Source: Desulforamulus reducens MI-1
Lineage (GTDB): Bacteria; Bacillota; Desulfotomaculia; Desulfotomaculales; Desulfotomaculaceae
Direction of reading: 5' to 3'
NCBI RefSeq assembly: GCF_000016165.1
Contig: NC_009253.1
Location: 3,173,484 to 3,237,483, forward strand
DNA length: 64,000 nt
Shown here: in pieces, positions 58,455-63,894 of the stretch
How the letters are laid out: each line of letters begins with the position of its first letter
Numbering within the stretch: the stretch's first letter is position 1
Translations under genes and position numbers: made by a program
Notes under the pieces: generated by a model
Databases searched by the model: none
What the model was told of the DNA's origin: nothing
Seen by the model: only the letters and a program-made list of their open reading frames with translations

Positions 58455-58976
58455 TTAAATTTGATATGGAAATATTACTGTGGAAAAATATATTTCATAT
58501 TTCTCAATGCTCTCACCCTCTTTTGATTTTGCACGTAAAACCACTTTATAACGATTATTGGGTAAAAAGCTGTAAATAGGTGAAATAAAACTTTATTTTC
58601 TTTAATCTCCACCGTACCTGTAACATTGTTTTTTTCATTAAGATCGGTAACTTCAACCGTGGCGTCGGAAATTTTCTGATTAATGAGAAATTCAATGGGA
58701 CGATGAATTGGCACTTGGCTATCACCATTACCTGGATTGGTATTGGTCACTTTTATGCTGGTTGCTGTTGTAAAGTTTACCTCAATCGGAAAATTTTGAT
58801 TTACTTCTTACATTTTCTTCTATACTACAAATCCTTTCATTTAGAACAACAACGGGGGACGCACTCTGTAGATCCACTGCTTTACCATCACTAATTGTTT
58901 TTATTAATAATCGTTCGCCATCAGGTGGTTCATAAGTTGTAACCAAATCCGATAACCTTTTCACAGCAATCACCAC
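58455..58976 (-). pseudogene. Broken gene for a secreted Ig-like (Big_5) protein
   Basis: Three frames must be joined to give one protein. The first (from 58976) reads KRLSDLVTTYEPPDGERLLI to VRSKSKF; a shift in an AAAATTTT run joins it to FPIEVNFTTATSIKVTNTNP and VPIHRPIEFLINQKISDATV; a second shift near 58548 leads to SFLPNNRYKVVLRAKSKEGE, then EKYEIYFSTV and a stop at 58455. The joined product resembles bacterial Ig-like repeats of surface proteins. Two independent shifts indicate decay, or sequencing error in AT runs. Confidence 0.55.
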
Positions 58977-59017
58977 ATTCCAATTGAAAAGAAATATTAC
59001 AAAACCGCACTTTTCCC

Positions 59018-59245
59018 TTATTTTGCATAAATAAATGCAGTGGTCCCGGAGTAGTTAGTTAAAAGCCTTTCCCCTTTTCGTCCGCTTCCCCCTACTTTAC
59101 TAGCAGCAGAAACAGCCAGGTGTGAGCCATGTGACCGGCAAAGTCTAGCGGAATCACTGGAGTTAGAGTGTTGTTCAGTTGCATCCCCTTGAGCCGGATT
59201 CACCAAAACCAACCATAATAGATTACAAAGCAGGTTTCGTTTCAT
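59018..59245 (-). CDS. Possible small exported protein or 5' end of the broken gene
   Basis: ATG at 59245 follows AAAGGTG. The first 20 residues (MKRNLLCNLLWLVLVNPAQG) look like a signal peptide; the remaining 55 are Ser/Gly-rich and unlike any family I know. It may be a separate gene or the detached start of the Ig-like pseudogene downstream. Confidence 0.3.
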   Translation of the reverse strand: MKRNLLCNLLWLVLVNPAQGDATEQHSNSSDSARLCRSHGSHLAVSAASKVGGSGRKGERLLTNYSGTTAFIYAK

Positions 59246-59327
59246 CTTTATCACCTTTCTTATAAGTTACACTTACAAATTTGTTTAACGTAATTCGAGC
59301 CCCCCTTAACCGGGGAGCCCGTTCTTT

Positions 59328-59650: not shown

Positions 59651-59732
59651 TTTGTGATACTTCTGGTCTAATTTATCAAATTTAAGTACAGCCCCTCTAA
59701 AATATAGTAGCTATATGGGTATGAAGTAATTA

Positions 59733-59783
59733 CAAATAAAAGGGAACAGGTTCCCACAGTGGGAGCCTGTTCCCTTTTATTTG
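59733..59783. terminator. Long perfect terminator of the Met-rich operon
   Basis: CAAATAAAAGGGAACAGG and its perfect complement (18 bp) with an inner TTCCCA/TGGGA stem. The right arm contains the TAA codon that ends the UGA-containing frame. Confidence 0.85.
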
Positions 59784-59962
59784 TCCTTAATATCCTCACG
59801 GGTATGGTCTTTTTCGTCACAACAGCTTTTTTTACCGGGCAACTGTCCGGTCGTCCCGTGGTTAGGGTGACTGCGGCCGCCACATCAGCCACCACCTCTG
59901 AACATCATCGCTATCATTAAAACAATGAACAGAAGCGGCAGGTAGTTGATAATATTCTCCAT
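59777..59962 (-). CDS. Small Cys/His-rich membrane protein with an in-frame UGA (candidate selenoprotein)
   Basis: ATG at 59962 has AAGGAAGG 7 bases upstream. The first 25 codons give a membrane helix (MENIINYLPLLFIVLMIAMM, then FRGGG). UGA at 59887-59885 follows. The same frame then continues for 35 codons, CGGRSHPNHG..., GKKSCCDEKDHT..., to a TAA lying inside the operon terminator. The tail is rich in Cys and His as expected of a metal or redox protein. UGA could code selenocysteine (U-C motif), or be a nonsense mutation of a Cys codon. A short GTGGC/GTCAC stem lies just after the UGA, closer than a typical SECIS. Confidence 0.5.
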
Positions 59963-60043
59963 ACCAAGCCTTCCTTTCAATTCCTAGAAACTCTCTGTGG
60001 TAAGTTTAGCCCCTGCATTTTAAGACAGGGGCTATGTAGTTAT

Positions 60044-60249
60044 CTACTTATTATCACTTTTATTGTCGTCCATATTCATTTTTCTGTGATCCATGTTTTT
60101 CATGTCACCGTTCATGTTGTTCATATCCTGGGACTGCTGGGTTTTTTGGTTGTCTCCAGAGCCAGTGTTTTTGTCAGTTCCGCCGCAACCTGCTAATAAG
60201 AGGCTAAGGGTCAGTAAAGTAACGATACCGAGGACATGTATTTTTTCAT
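60044..60249 (-). pseudogene. Met-rich lipoprotein gene with a frame break at A6
   Basis: ATG at 60249 follows CGGAGG. As written the frame closes after 12 codons. Adding one A to the run of six directly after the ATG gives MKKIHVLGIVTLLTLSLLLA, a lipobox LLAGC and a mature part rich in Met, Asn and Asp (QDMNNMNGDMKNMDHRKMNM), stopping at 60044. Ribosomal or polymerase slippage on the A-run could give the same product. It lies 33 bases after the Met-rich exported protein gene, probably one operon. Confidence 0.6.
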
Positions 60250-60282
60250 CGTGAACAACCTCCGTCTTTGATAAATATCCTT

Positions 60283-60999
60283 TTATGCTTCCTGATGGGC
60301 ATGGCCATCAGCGCTTTCCATATTGATAAACTGCCCGTGCCAGGTGTGGTACCAAACTTGACCGGTGGCACTGTTGACACTGAGCATGCCAGCAATTTTT
60401 CCGTCTTTAAGGGTATGCAGAGTGTAGTACCCATAAAACTCATGGGGTTCCGCCGCTGTCTCTCTGGTACTCTCGCGGACTAAAAACTCATTGGCCAACT
60501 TTACCGCATTCTCCGCTGAAACCATAGGTTTGCCACTCGTTGCACCGGCCCCCATCATGCCTCCCATGTGGCCATATTTCACATTCCACATCATATTAGG
60601 TCCCATTTCCGGGCTGAGGGAACCGGTACGCTTATCCAAAATAAACTCGTGGGCATACTTGCCACTTTGGTCCTCCCTGGTCTCCACATAAAAGTGGGTG
60701 TCAAACTCCATCAGTTCCGCCAGGGAAATGCCTTCCATTCCCGAAGTTTTTAGATAATCATTAACCAATTCCTTTGCCGTTTCTAAATCTACCGGCTCTT
60801 TCAGGTCAACACCGCCGCTACCCATCATGTTGCCGTGCATGCCCATCATGGAAGAACTCATCATTCCCATTCCGGGAATTCCCTGTCCCATTCCCCCGAC
60901 TCCAAAATTTCCTCTCCAGTTGCCCCAAGAAAGAACAGGTATGGATAACAAAAGGACCCCGATTAACAATCCTGATACCAACAGCTTATTGTTCAACAC
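60283..60999 (-). CDS. Exported Met-rich protein with PepSY-like repeats
   Basis: A 238-residue protein with a signal peptide (residues 1-25). Residues 30-62 hold about ten methionines (GMGQGIPGMGMM, SSMMGMHGNMM), a pattern seen in Cu(I)/Ag(I)-binding proteins. Two PepSY-like units follow, each ending in a YAHEFILDKRTGSL-type hairpin. The C-terminus is His-rich. GTG start behind AAAGGAGGGG. It heads an operon with the lipoprotein and the UGA-containing protein; the shared motif lies upstream. Confidence 0.75.
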   Translation of the reverse strand: MLNNKLLVSGLLIGVLLLSIPVLSWGNWRGNFGVGGMGQGIPGMGMMSSSMMGMHGNMMGSGGVDLKEPVDLETAKELVNDYLKTSGMEGISLAELMEFDTHFYVETREDQSGKYAHEFILDKRTGSLSPEMGPNMMWNVKYGHMGGMMGAGATSGKPMVSAENAVKLANEFLVRESTRETAAEPHEFYGYYTLHTLKDGKIAGMLSVNSATGQVWYHTWHGQFINMESADGHAHQEA

Positions 61000-61807: not shown

Positions 61808-62352
61808 TTAGTAGGAAGATGGTGAGCACCAGGCAGACCCGTAGGGGCAATCACATTTGCCCATTACATGCGGGCACCTATATTTATTGGTTCCAGCCTT
61901 TGCATCACTTCCCCAGAACACCATTCTTTGCCCCATTGAGCATATAGGGGTTCCATCAAAGTCACAGCCTTCAGGATGGTCCTTAGAGCCTCGGGAGTTA
62001 ATGGGGATAATTGCTTGAGCATTGAAGTCGTTCATTACTACAGAGTAGATGTCTTTACTGTCATAGCCCATATCCATGGTATAGTATTTAGGTTTTTTTG
62101 AGTCTTCCAAGGCCTTGTTTACTAATTCGATTAAAGGTATTGCCATCTTAGCATCATGGGTATTAGCAGGTGTAACCATAATAGCAATTGGTAGTTCACT
62201 ATGGCAATCAACTGCAACGTGAGCTTTATATCCAAACCAGGATATTTGGTTACCATGAGTATCCCTTTTAGCACCCCAGTTTGCAGTTTTGTCACCCTGC
62301 AAATCCTTTTTAGGCTTGGATTTTTCATACGCATCTATTTTGCTAAAATAAT
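61808..62352 (-). pseudogene. Transposase fragment, IS4/IS1182-like
   Basis: About 180 codons from the middle of a DDE transposase: GDKTANWGAKRD, the first-Asp region KAHVAVDCHSELPIA, a second Asp in TMDMGYDSKDIY and a Cys motif ending CPYGSAWCSPSSY. The 5' part and the C-terminal part with the catalytic Glu are absent, and no terminal inverted repeats are seen. It is a dead remnant. Confidence 0.85.
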
Positions 62353-62430: not shown

Positions 62431-63894
62431 TTATGCTACACTGCACTGATTCACCGGCAGCACGATGTTAAAAGAAGTCCCTTCGTTTAACTTACTTTCA
62501 ACATAAATCTGCCCCCCGTGGGCCTCCACTATTTTTTTGACAATGGCCAACCCCAGACCGGTCCCCCCCTGTGTTCTGCTACGGGACTTATCCGCTTTAT
62601 AAAATCTTTCCCAAATCATGGGTAAATCCTCCGGGGATATGCCTACTCCGGTATCACGGATACGGATGTGTACCTGATTAGCTTTGCTGGTGACATAAAT
62701 GAATATTTTACCCCCCTCAGGTGTATGGCGTACTGCATTGTCAATTAGGTTAATCAACACCCGTTCCATCCGGTCACTGTTGCAGGTAACCGGGAGTAAT
62801 CTTTTCTCCAGGTTTAGCTTGAGGTTAACACCCTTTTGTTCAACCAACTGGTTTAATTTGCCTAACACCCGGTAGATGAGAACTTTTAAATCACAGGGTT
62901 CTTTATCAAAATCAAAGTGCCCCTCTTCCATACGTTTCAAGTCCAGAATTTCATTAACCAGCCGTTTCAAACGATTTATTTCATCCAGGATATTGCCCAG
63001 GTATGTCTCCCTTTCCTTTTCATCCTTTACCAGACCATCCAACATGGTTTCTGTAAAACCCTGCATGATGGCCAGGGGAGTTTTGATTTCATGGGCCACA
63101 TTGCTAACGAACTCCCGGCGGATCTGTTCCTGGGCCTCCAGTTGAGTGATTTTTTCTTGCAGCCGGGAGGACAGGGTATTGAGAGAGTCAGACAACAGTC
63201 CAATCTCATCTTTAGACCGGATATCCACCCGGTGCTGGTAGTTACCGCTGGCCATCTCCAGGGCCACCTTGTTCATCTTTACCAAAGGCCGGGAGATGAT
63301 CCGAGAGAAGACCAGACTTAACAGGGCGGCTAGAATAATCCCCCCAACGGCAGTGTAAATAATCAGCATTTGCAGGTGTTTAAGTTCACTTGCCAGGGGT
63401 TCTAAAGGTGCGTGGATAATGACCGCCCTGTTCACATTGTCATGATCCTTGAAGGGGATACCCACCGATAACACATCGGTTTTAAAGAAAGGGTTATTGC
63501 CCTTGTGTACCACCGCTTGGCCCTGGTACAGTCTTTCTATATCTTCCATGCTCATAGGGCCGTGGTGGGGATTATTCATATCCATCGGCATATTCTTTGT
63601 GCTCATTCCCATTCCCTGGCACTGCATAACAATGCCCTTTTTGTTTAAAATCATTACATTAGCATTATAGAGTTCGGCAATCAGGGCTGCCTTGTTGTCC
63701 AGGGCAACGGGATCCTGCTCCAAACGAGCTATTTCTGCTACCTTATTACCTAGGGCTTTAAACTGCCTGGCCTGCTGCTCATAGTACAGACCCTCCATAA
63801 AGCTGGTCTGGACTGCACCAGCAATCCCAATAACTACCAGCACCAAAATGGTCATGATGACCCAGAGTTTGGTGACAATGTTGTTTAGCTTCAT
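62431..63894 (-). CDS. Sensor histidine kinase with a Met/His-rich external loop
   Basis: A 487-residue membrane kinase: TM1 (10-28), external domain (32-174), TM2 (176-198), HAMP (199-250), HisKA with His268 in [13 protein letters not shown], and HATPase ([27 protein letters not shown]). The external loop contains CQGMGMS at 92-98 and [15 protein letters not shown] at 102-116, a Met/His/Cys cluster suited to Cu(I) or Ag(I). It overlaps the response regulator gene by four bases and probably controls the Met-rich genes next door. Confidence 0.92.

Follow-up and report, generated by a model that had tools for sequence, protein, structure and literature searches.

Desulforamulus reducens MI-1 carries a small open reading frame that is interrupted by an in-frame UGA, and the locus raises the question of whether this codon is read as selenocysteine (Sec) or marks the point at which a gene was broken. 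The window (the whole stretch of 64,000 nucleotides that was analyzed) corresponds to positions 3173484 to 3237483 of a complete genome of 3,608,104 bases. The original prediction of a possible new small selenoprotein described 25 codons, a UGA, 35 codons, and a TAA within a terminator. This layout was confirmed, and the strand, which had not been given, is the minus strand. The codons before the UGA encode a membrane helix followed by GGG, and the 35 sense codons after it include those for CGG, SHPNHG, and SCCDEKDH.

59777-59962, minus strand: putative selenoprotein gene, 61 residues with Sec as residue 26, MENIINYLPLLFIVLMIAMMFRGGG-U-CGGRSHPNHGTTGQLPGKKSCCDEKDHTREDIKDK (from the open reading frame and orthologues with UGA)
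59960-59962, minus strand: start codon ATG
59885-59887, minus strand: in-frame UGA, aligned with the first Cys of the CC pair of homologues
59777-59779, minus strand: stop codon TAA, inside the terminator stem
59970-59977, minus strand: ribosome-binding site AAAGGAAG, directly 5' of the ATG (identified by eye)
59736-59780, both strands: 20-bp inverted repeat found in the sequence, terminator-like on either strand, which holds the TAA

Rfam matches on the terminator were hairpin-like and were rejected as chance matches. PADLOC gave no hits.

Conservation of the UGA and its replacement by cysteine

An in-frame UGA followed by a similar tail was found in two further Desulforamulus species, with 77% and 62% identity. 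The homologue in Desulforamulus putei DSM 12395 is VENITNYLPLLLIVLMIAMMFRGGG-UGA-CGGHSHRNHGTTGQLPGKKNCCEDKENTHEDKTGKK, and that in a third Desulforamulus species (G005) is MEALSKYLPLLLIVFMMVMMFRGGGG-UGA-CGGGHRSHGTTGQLPGQKGCCEDKEKTEDQKQKKE. All three copies retained the GTTGQLPG and CC motifs and differed in length by whole codons only. These three sequences, all within one genus, are the known UGA copies; no homologue was found in 7 of the 10 family genomes searched, and a plasmid search gave no matches. A scan of contigs returned, besides D. putei, one match to a Rhodococcus fragment, covering residues 21 to 42.

Protein-coding conservation was apparent on either side of the conserved UGA. 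Variable columns among the three species were distributed over codon positions 1/2/3 as 6/3/15 upstream of the UGA (P = 0.008) and as 7/5/17 downstream of it (P = 0.014). When amino acid identity was compared, pair by pair, with random placement of an equal number of changes, it was higher than in the random placements for D. putei versus G005 (P = 0.002) and D. reducens versus G005 (P = 0.03), and the comparison of D. reducens with D. putei was not significant (P = 0.31). At the level of sequence, this conservation demonstrates selection for readthrough of the UGA. The earlier remark that the composition of the tail is not that expected of untranslated DNA was borne out by the codon-position pattern downstream of the UGA and by the recurrence of UGA and tail in two other species.

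A search for homologues with Cys or UGA at this position had been proposed, and both were found. The family was present in 19 of 398 genomes of the phylum when searched with the single sequence and in 38 when searched with a profile (both counts include the source genome); a profile search of the 113 genomes of the order also detected it in six genomes outside the genus. In translated homologues the residue at the UGA is Cys (RGGGCCGGH...), the GGCCGG motif reads through the site, and none of the homologues ends at the GGG. No match outside the genus contained a TGA, which was confined to the three congeners. The UGA gene and the small Cys-containing membrane proteins of Firmicutes (MMRGGGCCGGHxHH..., some of which end in a YHS or CopZ-like domain) share their length, the N-terminal helix, R-G-G-G, the position of the CC pair and GG, and a His-rich tail, and thus form one family. 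They differ in that the Firmicutes proteins have Cys for Sec and that the aligned Cys homologues lack the GQLPG stretch, which in the UGA copies is encoded by a hairpin; its absence is expected if the stretch serves the RNA. The membrane-CC part of the Firmicutes proteins matched no Pfam or NCBIfam model, and this unnamed family is worth a profile of its own. Because the UGA is conserved in three species and is replaced by Cys in distant relatives, the gene very probably encodes a 61-residue selenoprotein with Sec at residue 26, and the Sec machinery of the genome lends the original prediction further support.

Selenocysteine machinery and a candidate SECIS element

Sec is inserted at UGA by SelB together with a downstream hairpin, and SECIS elements of clostridia may depend on their cognate SelB. 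The genes that the original prediction had listed for checking, selA, selB, selC, and selD, are all present in the genome, which thus encodes SelA, SelB, tRNA-Sec, and SelD. selA and selB adjoin each other (locus L083), tRNA-Sec was detected by both Rfam and ARAGORN (anticodon UCA), and selD has an in-frame TGA of its own. As selB was found in 10 of 10 genomes of the family, the machinery cannot account for which species hold the gene. Three RNA elements lie downstream of the UGA:

59835-59850, minus strand: likely SECIS hairpin, CCGGAC-AGUU-GCCCGG, with one A.C mismatch, encoding part of TGQLPG (from folding and comparison)
59853-59871, minus strand: smaller hairpin GUCaCCCUaaccACGGGAC, between the UGA and the likely SECIS hairpin, with a C.C mismatch here that is paired in the relatives
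59819-59883, minus strand: outer stem, 59877-59883 with 59819-59825, which could close both hairpins; its seven pairs form in all three species

In D. putei and G005 the main hairpin is perfect (CCGGGC-AGUU-GCCCGG, -11.6 kcal/mol). Its distance from the UGA is 40 nt in the window species, 40 nt in D. putei, and 37 nt in G005. Published rules for bacterial SECIS elements specify a loop of 3 to 9 nt, a stem of at least 4 pairs, G in the first two loop bases, a distance of 16 to 37 nt after the UGA, and a minimum free energy of at most -7.5, and the published model misses some bacterial SECIS elements (PMC13188914). The hairpin of G005 satisfied these rules at 37 nt, and the strong hairpin of D. 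putei lies at 40 nt, beyond the usual 16 to 37. In the window species the best hairpin within the rules was weak (loop CGGACA at 35 nt, -0.5 kcal/mol locally). Among 400 random TGAs of the window, 1.25 to 1.5% were followed by a hairpin within the rules at -9 or lower. The selD gene of the source genome is arranged similarly, with an in-frame UGA, then a small hairpin, and after it a strong one whose loop is of the GUU type (UGUCGCAG-GUU-CUGCGACA, -10.8 kcal/mol); it differs in encoding an unrelated protein and in the spacing of its hairpin (33 nt past the UGA versus 37 to 40 nt).

The third bases of codons 37 and 43, which flank the hairpin, are different in all three species, and within the hairpin a single base is variable, a change from G to A in the window copy. 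The hairpin thus looks constrained at the RNA level. There were no compensatory double changes among the three sequences, which leaves no basis for claiming covariation. When the 69 nt after the UGA were folded and compared with codon-resampled controls, z-scores of -3.2 and -3.3 were obtained for D. putei and G005, respectively; the window copy (-0.5) folded no better than its controls. The stem had originally been considered unconvincing as a SECIS, which holds for the window species, with its one mismatch, and to a lesser degree for the relatives. The CCGGGC-AGUU-GCCCGG hairpin is likely the SECIS element.

Because of the one mismatch in the hairpin, the efficiency of Sec insertion in the window species is the main doubt. 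It is conceivable, though unlikely, that a genuine selenoprotein of the genus is decaying in the window copy, the SECIS having weakened and the locus being under erosion, so that mostly a 25-residue peptide is made. Both hairpins are mismatched in the window species only, the fold of this copy does not exceed that of its controls, the adjacent lipoprotein gene has no start codon, and a transposase remnant is near. However, the frame and key residues are intact, as is the partner gene, the hairpin has kept its loop and its five remaining stem pairs, and the changes after the UGA that are peculiar to the window species are distributed as 1/2/5 over the codon positions.

Other readings of the UGA and known selenoproteins

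If the UGA were a real stop, the DNA downstream might encode another protein, for example from a GTG that overlaps the UGA:

59668-59895, minus strand: open reading frame in the +1 frame, with its GTG start overlapping the UGA; open in all three species

The overlap of this GTG with the stop resembles that in coupled translation, but 17 of the 29 variable columns are second codon positions in the +1 frame, where changes alter the amino acid. This excess indicates that the +1 frame is not the one under selection, and similarity to the Cys homologues is confined to the UGA frame, which makes a real stop very improbable. Readthrough with insertion of Cys, Trp, or some other residue would also fit the conservation, which directly shows readthrough, and the relatives have Cys. 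It too is highly improbable, given the full Sec machinery, selD as a second selenoprotein gene with UGA, and the SECIS-like hairpin. A dead gene in which a Cys codon mutated to a stop, regarded in the original prediction as the main alternative, is scarcely credible: the UGA is one base from UGC or UGU and neighboring genes are damaged, but the UGA and the same downstream frame are common to three species, so that two congeners contradict it, with conservation at the protein level 3' of the UGA and a conserved hairpin that the Cys homologues do not have.

The selenoprotein reading was compared with known families. No Pfam-A or NCBIfam 20.0 family was found above its curated cutoff, and the 119 selenoprotein families of a 2026 inventory (PMC13188914) include no fitting entry. 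A 2006 list gives eight selenoproteins for D. reducens, and the present gene is not among them (PMC1794560). No published description of the gene was found in a search that had preprints, subscription papers, and the current RefSeq annotation outside its scope. The selenoprotein family is new, within a kind of protein, the selenoprotein, that is already known. SaoC, MbdU, the Csac_0668 family, and KCU-star (PMC13188914) likewise have adjacent Cys and Sec, and several are metal linked; their motif is CU rather than the UC found here, and none matched in sequence in an NCBIfam scan with E values up to 1. The motif GUxG of the hypothetical selenoprotein DG (NF049953) fits the GUCG of the present protein. 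DG was not among the matches of the NCBIfam scan and was rejected, as its 172-position model had no match in the three genomes; control genomes also gave no match, so this search had no positive control. The addition of this family to the selenoproteome suggests that very small selenoproteins get missed.

Neighboring genes and a possible role in metal handling

Two further features lie on the same strand, upstream of the putative selenoprotein gene:

60283-60999, minus strand: partner gene, intact, encoding a 238-residue exported protein rich in Met and His
60063-60250, minus strand: Met-rich lipoprotein frame, VLGIVTLLTLSLLLAGCGG..., whose start codon was lost by a frameshift

The partner gene and the selenoprotein gene occur in exactly the same three congeners. 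A low-confidence model of its product has two alpha-beta units, with the PepSY-containing C-terminal domain of YpeB as the best solved match, and the protein probably consists of two PepSY-like units. The ATG directly upstream of the lipoprotein frame is out of frame; an intact lipoprotein copy lies between the partner and selenoprotein genes in G005, and D. putei has none. The suggestion that broken genes lie on both sides thus fits the lipoprotein gene, with its lost start, and a transposase remnant at 61808-62302, but not the intact partner gene.

No copper gene was identified beside the UGA copies, including that of the window, and support for the suggested copper operon came from the Cys family elsewhere. 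Motifs of P-type ATPases were located within 1.5 kb at 10 of 38 distinct Cys-homologue loci (a raw count), and five of those 10 loci have CPCALGLATPT, the motif of copper exporters. Some Cys homologues carry a fused YHS domain, others a CopZ-like heavy-metal domain. Among 131 neighboring open reading frames, E1-E2 ATPases (n = 7), LGT (n = 7), SHOCT (n = 5), and HMA (n = 4) were represented, again as raw counts, so that enrichment of metal genes near the family is a matter of judgement. A C-terminal YHS domain or motif was seen at loci L017, L020, L022, L031, L032, L070, and L073 (family match near 1501), and a CopZ-like heavy-metal motif at L025, L074, and L075.

If the UGA is read as Sec, translation would begin at 59962, and the single N-terminal helix would anchor the peptide in the membrane. 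At codon 26, SelB and Sec-tRNA(Sec), guided by the hairpin 37 to 40 nt downstream, would insert Sec where the family's GGCCGG motif has its first Cys; we infer such insertion in cells from sequence comparison. The product would have a Sec-Cys pair right next to the helix; the tail beyond it would contain His and a second Cys-Cys pair and, judged from its charge, is probably cytoplasmic. At the membrane, the Sec-Cys, His, and Cys-Cys ligands would bind Cu(I) or other soft metal ions, and the bound metal might be handed to an exporter or partner. The Cys relatives, which include fusions with YHS or copper-chaperone domains and neighbors of copper-type P-ATPases, probably act in this way. The most likely role, at about even odds, is therefore the binding or transfer of metal, for example copper, by a membrane-anchored peptide whose Cys-Cys pair became Sec-Cys; the chief functional rival is a role in redox chemistry alone.

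A broader proposal is held a little more tentatively than the metal role itself. The Cys proteins may represent undescribed metal-handling membrane peptides with a Cys-Cys pair, widespread in Firmicutes, from which a Sec-Cys form evolved in Desulforamulus with its SECIS at the limit of the usual distance or slightly past it and with Sec itself coordinating Cu(I) or a different soft metal. If this is true, exchanging one Sec for Cys in a 61-residue protein would make it possible to measure how Sec affects metal affinity, and a Sec-Cys pair that binds metal would be a very small natural model for studying why cells spend selenium at a metal site. The weakened SECIS of one species would test how much change in structure Sec insertion tolerates, and the analysis also draws attention to an unnamed family of Cys proteins that is widespread and linked to copper exporters.

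In G005, the same-strand genes that follow include those for a methyltransferase, a ferredoxin-type membrane protein, CcdA- and ResA-like thiol redox proteins, and an ArsP-type permease. The histidine kinase open reading frame that adjoins the module in G005 has only 81 codons (L084, 10828-11073, minus strand) and may be broken; the histidine kinase gene of the window (62431-63894) is intact. The transposase remnant of the window, of the DDE type and on the minus strand, lies between this kinase gene and the gene for a SHOCT protein. Short overlapping open reading frames at 58475-59254 (minus strand) resemble fragments of one decayed exported protein.
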